Positions 1 to 20,013 of a stretch of DNA of 32,064 nt are shown one piece after another (position 1 is the first letter of the stretch; the number at the start of each line of letters is the position of its first letter). The DNA is from Oscillibacter sp. Its GTDB lineage: Bacteria > Bacillota > Clostridia > Oscillospirales > Oscillospiraceae. The notes beneath the pieces are model-generated. The model saw only the letters and a program-made list of their open reading frames with translations, was not told the DNA's origin and made no database searches. The stretch spans positions 1 through 32,064 of the forward strand of contig JAGBDS010000099.1 in the NCBI GenBank assembly GCA_017937405.1, read 5' to 3'. A program made the translations under genes and the position numbers.

Positions 1-749
1 ACGGCCTCGATAGCCTGCATCATCCCACACAGGCCGTCCGTGCAGAACAGATATACATCCAAAACGCCCCTGCTTTTGAGGTCATTCAGCACATTCAGCC
101 AGAATTTGCTGTTTTCGTGCTCTCCAATCCAGACTCCCAGAATGTCCTTCCTGCCATCCATGGTGACGCCCAACACCACATAGGCTGCCTTGGTCACGTA
201 CCGCCGGTCTTCCCGAACCTTGTAGTGAATGGCGTCCATAAACACAAACGGATACACCGGCTCCAGCGGACGGTTCTGCCAGGCTGTGACCTCCGGCATG
301 ATCTTTTCGCCGATCTTCGTTACCAGCTCTGGAGAGATCTCCACGCCGTACAGCTCCTTGATCTGCTCAGCGATATCCCCCTGGCTCATGCCGCAGGCGT
401 ACAGAGCCAGAATCTTATCCTCCATCCCGTCCGCATTCCGGTCATACTTGCCGATGATCTTGGGCTCGAAAGAGCCGTTCCGGTCCCGGGGCACCTTGAT
501 GTCCACCTCGCCCAGCTGGGTCTTGACGGTCTTCTTCGTATAGCCGTTTCGGTAGTTTCTGGGGGCTCCCTCCGGCTCGTCTGAGCGCTCGCAACGCTCA
601 CGACCAAGCTCCTCGTCCATCTCCACTTCCATGACGGTCTGGATGACATCCCGGAACATTTCCTTCATGGCCTCCATGATCTCCGTCGTGCTGGTGAAGT
701 GCTGGCTCTGAACGTATTCCTTCAACAAATCCTGTGGTACCGGCTGCAT
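1..749 (-). CDS. IS256-family transposase, partial (C-terminus outside window)
   Basis: About 249 residues are visible, starting MQPVPQDLLKEYV. The family (Mutator-like, DDE/RNase H fold) excises and reinserts the element. The N-terminal part contains the segment RNYRNGYTKKTVKTQLGEVD followed by VPRDRNGSFEP, characteristic of IS256 proteins. The first catalytic Asp lies in the motif FMDAIHYKVR and the second in CTDGLCGMMQAI; the third catalytic Glu would lie beyond the window edge. The start ATG at 747-749 matches the start of the second copy at 31753. No frameshift is seen in the visible part, so the gene may be functional. Confidence 0.9.
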   Translation of the reverse strand, partial: MQPVPQDLLKEYVQSQHFTSTTEIMEAMKEMFRDVIQTVMEVEMDEELGRERCERSDEPEGAPRNYRNGYTKKTVKTQLGEVDIKVPRDRNGSFEPKIIGKYDRNADGMEDKILALYACGMSQGDIAEQIKELYGVEISPELVTKIGEKIMPEVTAWQNRPLEPVYPFVFMDAIHYKVREDRRYVTKAAYVVLGVTMDGRKDILGVWIGEHENSKFWLNVLNDLKSRGVLDVYLFCTDGLCGMMQAIEA

Positions 750-856: not shown

Positions 857-1462
857 TCACAGTTCCTCGGCCTTGAAGATCGCATAACCCTCATAGTAGT
901 AGCTGTGGTCGATACCTTTCATATAAACTTCACGGCTGTCAATTTCGTCTGTAAGTGCATTTCGCAGGATGTGCTTGATTTCTGTATCCCGGATAGGACT
1001 GCGTTCCATGGCCAGCAGATAGTCCTCTTTATCCACGCGGCTCCAGTCTACCACCTGGTGCAACTCGGCTTTCAGAAGCAGATCCAGCCAGATGCGTGTG
1101 CTACGCCCGTTGCCTTCACGGAAGGGGTGGGCGATGTTCATCTCCACGTACTTCTCAATGATCTCATCAAAAGTGGACTGCGGCATCTTTTCAATATTCG
1201 CAAGCGCTGCTTCCAGGTACATCACCGGAGCAAAACGGAAGTTGCCCTTGGCGATGTTAACTGTGCGGAGTTCGCCGGCAAAGTCGTAAATCTCCTCAAA
1301 GAGGTACTTGTGGATGGCTTGCAGGGAGGAGAAGGTTCCGGCCTCCAGCTGATTCAGCAGACCTTTCTCAAAAAGCTCGACAGCTTTCTTTTTGCTGATT
1401 CGCTCTTCCTCACGGGCGAGATCAGCAGAGGATGTGAGTCCCAGTTTATTCTCAAGAGCCAT
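857..1462 (-). CDS. Fic/DOC family protein, class III (self-inhibited AMPylase-type)
   Basis: A 201-residue Fic-domain protein. Such enzymes usually transfer AMP from ATP to a hydroxyl side chain of a target protein; the target here is unknown. The active-site motif [12 protein letters not shown] spans residues 112-123, with catalytic His112 and all phosphate-binding positions intact. The C-terminus carries SYYYEG (187-192), matching the (S/T)xxxE(G/N) inhibitory motif. Its position after the Fic core places the protein in class III (NmFic-like), where the inhibitory helix is part of the same chain and no separate antitoxin is needed; indeed no small antitoxin gene is adjacent. The start is preceded by AAAGGAGGT at good spacing. 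The stop codon lies 2 bp from the end of the IS256 copy, so the IS landed just behind the gene. Confidence 0.92.
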
Positions 1463-1491
1463 GGCGAAACCTCCTTTGCCTAAATTAAAAC

Positions 1492-1521
1492 AAAAGGCAC
1501 TTACTTTCGCAAGTGCCTTTT
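1492..1521 (-). terminator. Rho-independent terminator of the tRNA-Arg transcript
   Basis: An 11-bp perfect stem (AAAAGGCACTT / AAGTGCCTTTT) with an 8-base loop lies 2 bases beyond the CCA end of the tRNA. Read leftward it is followed by a T-rich stretch, so it would stop tRNA transcription before fic. Confidence 0.85.
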
Positions 1522-1523
1522 AG

Positions 1524-1600
1524 TGGTACGCCCGACTGGATTCGAACCAGCGGCCTTCAGAGTCGGAGTCTGACGCGCTATCCAACTGCGCCACGGGCGC
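1524..1600 (-). tRNA. tRNA-Arg, anticodon CCG
   Basis: On the minus strand the 77 bases fold into a complete cloverleaf: acceptor GCGCCCG pairing with CGGGCGT, D arm GCGC/GCGC, anticodon stem TCAGA/TCTGA with the 7-base loop CTCCGAC, and T arm GCTGG-TTCGAAT-CCAGT. The anticodon is CCG (reads CGG, arginine). The discriminator base is A and the CCA end is encoded. The gene appears to be an integration hot spot: two orphan copies of its 5' 39 bases lie upstream. Confidence 0.95.
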
Positions 1601-1643
1601 GTATCAAAACGGTATGAACTTGTGGGGAAGTGCTATTTTTCAA

Positions 1644-1665
1644 AATAGTGGTCAAATAGTAGTCA
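1644..1665. repeat. Two adjacent 11-bp direct repeats, possible integrase arm sites
   Basis: AATAGTGGTCA is followed at once by AATAGTAGTCA (one mismatch), a spacing of one helical turn. The position between the intact tRNA and the first orphan half fits an arm-type recognition site of a tyrosine recombinase. Confidence 0.5.
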
Positions 1666-1751
1666 ACGGCGGAGGAGATTTTCCTCTGCATTGGCTGGAA
1701 GCCACTGATTGCAAGGGGTTGCGCCGGTTCGCTGCGGATAGGGCCTGAAAC

Positions 1752-1790
1752 GTCGGAGTCATGCACTCTATCCAACTGAGCTACGGGCGC
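1752..1790 (-). pseudogene. Orphan 5' half of tRNA-Arg, copy 1
   Basis: Thirty-nine bases from the acceptor stem GCGCCCG through the anticodon loop CTCCGAC, then abrupt loss of similarity. The D arm reads GCTC/GAGT instead of GCGC/GCGC, so the copy is a diverged or different-source tRNA-Arg half. It cannot form an anticodon or acceptor stem. The breakpoint is at the same base as in the other orphan half and in register with the intact gene, which argues for a recombination crossover in the anticodon loop. Confidence 0.8.
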
Positions 1791-1847
1791 ATATAATGTT
1801 TTTTTGTTTAGCGAATTAAAGAAAATGGTGGTAATTGGGGAAAAATT

Positions 1848-1875
1848 GCTAACAAAATGCTAACGGTTTGCTGAC
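1848..1875. repeat. Three 6-bp repeats at 11-bp spacing, possible integrase arm sites
   Basis: GCTAAC begins at 1848 and 1859, and GCTGAC at 1870, exactly 11 bp apart. Like the repeats at 1644-1665 they lie between two copies of the tRNA half, but the motif differs, suggesting a second, unrelated element. Confidence 0.5.
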
Positions 1876-1937
1876 GAAAAGGAAGTTGAGTTGGGAAAGT
1901 ATTGAAAAATGGGTGTTTTTCAGGTGTGACCCCATGT

Positions 1938-1976
1938 GTCGGAGTCTGACGCACTATCTAATTGCGCCACGGGCGC
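1938..1976 (-). pseudogene. Orphan 5' half of tRNA-Arg, copy 2 (probably the original 5' end)
   Basis: Again 39 bases from GCGCCCG to CTCCGAC. Differences from the intact gene are few and lie in the D region. A consensus-like promoter sits just upstream (2010-2038), which suggests that this is the ancestral 5' end of the gene, displaced from its 3' half by insertions. Confidence 0.8.
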
Positions 1977-2009
1977 ATTTACCAAGACGTGCTTCACACA
2001 TCGATTGGT

Positions 2010-2038
2010 AGTATAGCAGAGATTTGACTGGGTGTAAA
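2010..2038 (-). promoter_or_regulatory. Sigma-A-type promoter in front of the orphan tRNA-Arg 5' half
   Basis: On the minus strand TTTACA (2033-2038) and TATACT (2010-2015) are separated by 17 bases. The predicted start lies about 27-30 bases before the orphan half, normal for a tRNA leader. No terminator is evident between here and the intact tRNA, so it could still drive it by read-through. Confidence 0.7.
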
Positions 2039-19416: not shown

Positions 19417-20013
19417 ATGCAGGAGAAGAAACCGGAAGCAAAAGAAGAGCAGAAGATCCCTGGGCGGGAAATGTATGAGTGGGTACAGGCGCTGGTCTGC
19501 TCTGTGCTGGCTGTGGTGGTGCTGTTTACCTTCGTTATCCGGATGATTGGCGTAGACGGTCATTCCATGGTGCCGACGCTCCAGGACAGAGACCGTTTGC
19601 TGGTGTTGAACTCCATGATTTATGACGATTACAAGTACGGCGATATCGTGGTACTGCGGAAATCTTCCTTTTTGACGGAGCCCATCGTGAAGCGGGTCAT
19701 CGCTACAGAGGGCCAGACGGTGGACATCGACTTTTCCACCGGCAGCGTCTATGTGGACGGTATGCTGCTGAAAGAGGACTACATTAATGAGCTGACCTTT
19801 ACCGAGGAGGGCACGGCGTTTCCTCTGACAGTGCCGGAGGGCAGCATCTTCGTCATGGGTGACAACCGCAACCACAGCAACGACAGCCGGGATTCCCGGC
19901 TGGGTACGGTGGATGCCCGCTATGTCATTGGCAAGGCGGTGTTTCTGGCCTTTCCGGGGCCGGACATCGTGACCGAAAAATGTGATTATAGCCGAATTGG
20001 AGTGATCGAATGA
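19417..20013 (+). CDS. lepB: Type I signal peptidase
   Basis: The membrane enzyme that removes signal peptides from exported proteins. The 198 residues show a cytoplasmic N-terminus rich in Lys/Glu, one membrane helix (about 24-43), and the serine-lysine catalytic domain. Ser50 lies in GHSMVPTL, Lys92 in VKRVIATEGQ, and box E reads GDNRNHSNDSRD (148-159). This is the short, single-helix Gram-positive form. GAGGAG lies 8 bases before the ATG. Its stop overlaps the rbgA start by 4 bases (ATGA). Confidence 0.95.
   Translation: MQEKKPEAKEEQKIPGREMYEWVQALVCSVLAVVVLFTFVIRMIGVDGHSMVPTLQDRDRLLVLNSMIYDDYKYGDIVVLRKSSFLTEPIVKRVIATEGQTVDIDFSTGSVYVDGMLLKEDYINELTFTEEGTAFPLTVPEGSIFVMGDNRNHSNDSRDSRLGTVDARYVIGKAVFLAFPGPDIVTEKCDYSRIGVIE

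Follow-up and report, generated by a model that had tools for sequence, protein, structure and literature searches.

Successive integration of tRNA-carrying elements as a proposed origin of orphan tRNA-Arg(CCG) halves in Oscillibacter and its relatives

The tRNA-Arg(CCG) gene on a contig of Oscillibacter sp. is preceded by two partial copies of itself, both of which break off in the anticodon loop. How did these orphan halves arise, and where did the intact gene come from? The window (the whole stretch of DNA that was analysed, 32,064 nucleotides) contains exactly one tRNA-Arg(CCG). The locus is composed as follows; the terms inner and outer refer to the two elements proposed below.

3..749, minus strand: Mutator-family transposase gene, presumably IS256-like, 107 bp past the Fic gene and cut off by the edge of the contig
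857..1462, minus strand: Fic/DOC family gene immediately following the tRNA; its protein is 99.5% identical in G013
1491..1522, minus strand: terminator-like hairpin 3' of the intact tRNA, with close counterparts in G013, G385 and G214
1524..1600, minus strand: intact tRNA-Arg(CCG), identified by ARAGORN and Rfam
1562-1600, minus strand: 5' half within the intact tRNA-Arg(CCG)
1562-1568: loop CTCCGAC of the intact tRNA-Arg(CCG), a putative fresh integration target
1601..1751, minus strand: left attachment arm of the inner element, beginning with GTTTCAGG after the core
1643..1666, minus strand: arm-type repeat TTGACTACTATTTGACCACTATTT of the inner arm, 11-bp spacing
1752..1790, minus strand: middle orphan 5' half, stem CATGA, core at 1752-1758
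1791..1937, minus strand: left attachment arm of the outer element, of a different arm type
1847..1864, minus strand: arm-type repeat GTTAGCATTTTGTTAGCA of the outer arm, 11-bp spacing
1938..1976, minus strand: outermost orphan 5' half, core at 1938-1944
2010..2038, minus strand: promoter TTTACA-17-TATACT upstream of the outermost half

Orphan halves and arms in the window

According to the initial annotation, three segments of the locus share the first 39 bases of the tRNA. Three 5' halves are indeed present, but they are not identical, the orphans matching the intact half at 32/39 and 36/39 positions. The best other match to the 39-nt half in the window reached 23/39 (both strands, outside 1501-2000) and the maximum in 20 simple shuffles of 8 kb was 24/39. 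The likeness, though not literal identity, is therefore far beyond chance. As had been described, all three halves terminate at CTCCGAC and similarity is lost immediately afterwards. The two spacers, said to be unrelated and to carry repeats at 11-bp spacing, do differ from each other (71/116 aligned positions) and contain the two repeats listed above, and the promoter was found at the outermost half (2038-2010). Beyond the promoter, on the opposite strand, lies a rex-like gene with CoA_binding and Put_DNA-bind_N domains, which is annotated as Rex in relatives. The stem of the middle half, CATGA, pairs incompletely with the present 3' half (TCTGA).

Units and split host alleles in related genomes

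Comparison of the locus across relatives had been suggested as a check. The genus sample comprised 86 genomes; many of the genomes compared are metagenome bins. Orphan 5' halves, one or more, with an arm of 142-153 bp and then another half behind them, were present in 19/86 genomes (that of the window and 18 relatives), and a decayed unit was recognized by eye in two more (G371 and G373). These 21 unit-bearing genomes are a lower bound, because upstream DNA was viewed in part of the 86 genomes. Units, each consisting of half and arm, were 181-192 bp long. G369 carries two of them in tandem (145/151 identical), and in some relatives, such as G028, no unit is found at the tRNA and the native promoter lies directly before it. 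The relatives thus have zero, one or two tandem units, and neither the same three-part structure in insertion-free genomes nor three full genes in decay, either of which would have spoken against integration, was seen.

Elements in sister strains with ends matching the two spacers had also been named as possible support. The inner arm (1601..1751) is 94-98% identical in 7 relatives, whose identity over the promoter and rex flanks is 74-88%. Among 8 genomes the arms (92-98%) are more alike than the rex 5' regions (77-88%), showing that the arm moved between species. The outer arm (1791-1937) had no match beyond its own genome in 300 genomes drawn from the family. In three genomes measured, an arm-type repeat TTGACTACTATTTGAC begins 85 bp inside the left core, and in G013 a similar repeat is found some 156 bp inward of the right core.

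Several further observations concern related sites. In L041, L042, L043 and L129, mostly with arms starting GTTTCTGACA, another gene takes the place of Fic after the tRNA; judging from its translated start, we take its product to resemble rubrerythrin. Orphan halves starting with CGCCCGTAGCTTAAGCTGG or nearly so occur in L212, L213, L219, L221, L223, L244 and L247, with no intact tRNA within 400 bp. Three such sites belong to Lapin-002 bin97 (L213, L232, L242), and two lie on one contig (L225 and L247). Contig 48 of G007 (L038 1577-1653) has a tRNA-like copy whose 5' half is only 26 nt long, perhaps reflecting another junction.

The anticodon stem makes it possible to ask which parts of the intact gene are new. 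Import of a 5' half only would leave an intact gene in which the 5' stem is new and the 3' stem is old. When named genomes were scanned with a sequence pattern, 51 sites turned up in 50 stretches, whose titles all name Clostridia, Clostridiales, or families or genera therein; the 39 sites with an intact tRNA within 400 bp were kept, no such tRNA having been found for the other 12. The stem differed between orphan and intact gene at 9/39 sites. At all nine, the intact 3' stem pairs at 5/5 positions with the new 5' stem and at 3-4/5 with that of the orphan, which contradicts the import of a 5' half only. A displaced 3' half with the stem partner of the orphan was found in 5/9 stem-changed genomes, namely G357 and G407, where both halves lie on one contig, and G358, G406 and G409, where they lie on different contigs; a search of the other 4/9 genomes revealed none.

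On one contig of G357 (L210, O. valericigenes An411) the orphan stem reads TTAGA and the displaced 3' stem, at 19441, TCTAA (element 1, 15.5 kb), and the intact tRNA between these host halves has ACAGA/TCTGT. Likewise, on one contig of G407 (23.4 kb) the outer halves pair with each other and the intact tRNA is another allele. When the host halves of G357, G407 and G358 were joined, each read as tRNA-Arg(CCG) in ARAGORN. The joined alleles of G357 and G358 occur intact, identical over 74 nt, at other fetched loci, and that of G407 is at most one mismatch from several intact loci. In G407 the intact and displaced 3' halves have a common unusual T-loop base, so some exchange between copies may take place. 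The stem test, the paired outer halves and the joined alleles together show that in these relatives the host tRNA is cut in two, with a complete foreign gene between the pieces.

Element bodies and proposed mechanism

The initial annotation had also called for elements with a tyrosine integrase bounded by the 5' half, and these were found in relatives. In G013, the orphan 5' half is followed in turn by the arm, the intact tRNA, Fic, a pair of tyrosine integrases (412 and 414 aa), a MobA-type relaxase, NikA/MobC and an AAA_25 protein. The displaced 3' half follows 16.2 kb past the first core, with GGCCTGATAA in front. Integrases and relaxase were assigned by Pfam; IntA and IntB denote the Phage_integrase proteins beside the tRNA. 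Wherever an element is visible in a relative, its body is on the far side of the intact tRNA, and 7 bp, CTCCGAC, are common to both element ends, the junctions sitting in the anticodon loop. The 16.2-kb element of G013 has integrase and relaxase; a lack of full conjugation machinery could be judged only from 12 scanned ORFs, and no phage structural families were among these 12. Such elements are taken to be integrative and probably mobilizable. Displaced 3' halves of this kind (at most 3 mismatches) were found at 18 sites in 15/86 genomes.

Integrases with 60% or more identity to IntA were present in 19/86 genomes, the query genome included, among the matches listed. Among these matches, the unit occurs in 15/19 genomes with such an IntA and in 6/67 others, the counts not being independent as the genomes are related; 6/21 unit-bearing genomes thus have no close IntA among the matches listed. 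In G360, G379, G394 and G380, integrase and tRNA share one contig and the upstream unit is absent, which means either that units can be lost or that some elements have only a 3' half; these elements may be of the standard type. In G369, IntA/IntB matches are absent from the 38 kb downstream of the two units. This suggests loss of the body with arms and tRNA kept, for example via recombination between the 45-bp 3' halves.

A pair of neighbouring tyrosine integrases, with about 30% identity to each other, is seen in L032 (1504-4046) and its relatives, i.e. in G013 and most others seen. A second element of G357, 16.2 kb long and in tandem, begins at its left end with a 3' half (L136 19441-19999, L276); it is perhaps of the standard type or has lost the unit. 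TG in place of AA/GA precedes the 3' halves in L280 (1989-2033), L266, L270 and L272, with stems TCACA, TCCGA and TCTGA, perhaps owing to another integrase type acting at the same loop.

The circular junction expected of an excised element (right end, core, left arm) had no exact match in the 86 genus genomes. Five matches in viruses were read as chance, and viral scans for two arm repeats gave 1 match and 0 matches. The two best records of a phage collection look like chromosomal pieces rather than elements. We take their ORFs to be rex, era and transporter genes; a Pusillibacter plasmid record also contains rex. Around the core, right ends match left arms as inverted repeats at 84/120 positions over 12 pairs. 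Within genomes the match was 54/80, compared to 49.9 by permutation (8 genomes, P 0.087), and at this P value the covariation is weak and not significant.

We propose that the elements carried a whole tRNA which replaced the split host gene, and that a second element repeated this in the window; we consider this reading very probable. Each orphan 5' half would mark one integration by a tyrosine integrase at the 7-bp core in the anticodon loop. The host gene would be split and not rebuilt, leaving its 5' half and promoter upstream and its 3' half at the opposite end of the element. Immediately inside the left arm of about 150 bp with its arm-type repeats, the complete tRNA-Arg(CCG) of the element would then stand in for the broken one. 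Because the imported tRNA is a fresh target, a second element can integrate and 5' halves can pile up. In the window, an outer element with the other arm type would have split the host tRNA, giving the outermost half, and an inner element of the G013 type would have split the tRNA of the first, giving the middle half, and brought the present tRNA together with Fic. The two scars are thus presumed to have arisen as in the relatives, with IntA using the 7-bp core. Attachment scars from two successive crossovers in the anticodon loop, with the outermost half as the oldest and in possession of the native promoter, had been suggested from the start, and this part of the initial annotation is supported.

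In the window itself, the mismatch between the middle stem and the present 3' half fits the prediction; decay of the orphan could also cause it. Several results speak against the proposal, among them the circular junction that was sought and not found, the four integrase-bearing genomes with no upstream unit, the four stem-changed genomes in which no matching 3' half was found and the weak inverted-repeat match. Searches of the window's own genome, whose assembly is about 89% complete, likewise found no displaced 3' half, no predicted TCATG partner of the middle half and no close IntA (best 32% among the matches listed). The DNA beyond Fic showed no similarity to the stretch between Fic and IntA of G013. 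As the contig ends inside an insertion sequence beside Fic, the body of the inner element may be missing or unassembled. The Fic/DOC gene seems to be the first cargo gene of this element and might have a role in its maintenance. On the tRNA strand, the native promoter is the only sigma-70-like match in both the window and G358. It is predicted to drive the imported tRNA of the window through both arms. The arm of the decayed unit in G371 (L067 1624-1651), unlike those of the window, has a TTGCAA-16-TATAAT match toward the tRNA, so some arms may have a promoter of their own.

Other origins of the locus were weighed against replacement by a whole carried tRNA. The initial annotation held that each incoming element supplied a new 5' half only, displaced the old one and later lost its interior, leaving the spacers as scars of about 150 bp. 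The window taken alone, with one 3' half to three 5' halves, would agree with this, as would G369 with its two units and no IntA/IntB match in the 38 kb downstream. We nevertheless regard it as improbable: the 3' half was replaced as well at all nine stem-changed loci, and displaced 3' halves stand at the right end of the elements. Nor would independent interior deletions be expected to leave arms within the range of 142-153 bp in 18 relatives, and where elements are visible their body lies beyond the intact tRNA, not in the spacer.

Alternatively, half and arm could form a miniature mobile element of about 190 bp, moved in trans by a resident integrase. Its narrow length range, the near-identical tandem units of G369 and the unit-bearing genomes that have no close IntA among the matches listed are all in line with such an element. 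It would leave the replaced 3' halves unexplained, however, and the unit tracks IntA (15/19 versus 6/67 genomes, among the matches listed), which makes this origin similarly unlikely. Decay of three tandem tRNA genes, with no mobile element involved, would account for three similar 5' halves in a row, but hardly for two orphans that stop at the same base. Further 3' halves were sought near the orphans and none was found, relatives differ in having zero, one or two units, and genomes such as G028, where the native promoter immediately precedes the tRNA, contradict it. We therefore consider it extremely improbable.

Relation to known systems and implications

Cis-mobilizable elements are attachment-site remnants without an integrase of their own; the remnant described here differs in consisting of one arm and half a tRNA. 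Replacement by a carried tRNA resembles tRNA-dependent lysogeny, which is described, with genetic tests, for phages of Actinobacteria (Guerrero-Bustamante and Hatfull 2024, PMC10865867). As far as that description goes, the likeness lies in the short core, the tRNA that is not rebuilt and the cognate tRNA on the element. Here, a tyrosine integrase lies beside the tRNA and attB is in the tRNA gene, action by IntA/IntB being presumed; both host halves are left broken in G357 and G407 around a 7-bp core, and an intact foreign tRNA-Arg(CCG) stands between them. The elements do not look like temperate phages, as relaxase, NikA/MobC and AAA_25 were found instead (12 ORFs of one element, G013). Compared to the phages as described in PMC10865867, they belong to Oscillospiraceae, have relaxase genes and a tRNA directly behind the left arm, nest repeatedly, and are characterized from sequence.

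In Sinorhizobium meliloti, prophages and islands are described whose integration inactivates a tRNA that is replaced by a carried-in one (PMC11476347). The imported tRNA is more like those of unrelated bacteria, and the authors speak of tRNA gene diversification (PMC11476347). That case is phage-related and concerns an alphaproteobacterium, and relaxases and strings of 5' halves are unmentioned in the passages available to us (PMC11476347). For one group of S. meliloti prophages, a later study reports no features of tRNA-dependent lysogeny (PMC12429752). Prophage Lj965 of Lactobacillus johnsonii reportedly does not rebuild the tRNA and encodes the cognate one; it is a prophage, and the likeness rests on its description in PMC10865867. 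The genomic islands treated by Islander, as outlined there, likewise use tyrosine integrases and tRNA genes, a fragment marking their end (PMC4383910). In that outline, a standard island restores the gene and displaces a single fragment, whereas here a full gene stands between 5' and 3' fragments of another allele (PMC4383910). By the stem test, and in G357 and G407 directly, the intact allele differs from both displaced halves, so the host gene was not restored.

The portions of the literature on this strategy that were available contained no mobilizable-element case, and other papers naming tRNA-dependent lysogeny could hold one. What is new relative to the known systems is the relaxase-bearing elements, the tRNA behind the attachment arm and the nested reuse of the imported tRNA as a target. 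In a wider reading, for and against which we see about equal grounds, tRNA-Arg(CCG) in Oscillospiraceae would repeatedly be swapped for element-borne copies. Such a replacement ratchet would confer mobility on a host tRNA and make its bearer difficult to shed, with each element in turn breaking the resident copy, imposing a putative dependence, using the promoter already in place and presenting a new target to the next.

Programs that look for islands on the assumption of a single fragment each may mis-map such elements. For the bacteria, the proposed replacement offers a simple cause for the turnover of tRNA alleles and for strings of 5' fragments. Our data suggest that breaking the host tRNA and supplying a whole replacement apparently occurs also in elements with mobilization genes in common gut bacteria, and not in phages only. 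They further suggest a possible route by which an element could make its host dependent on it.
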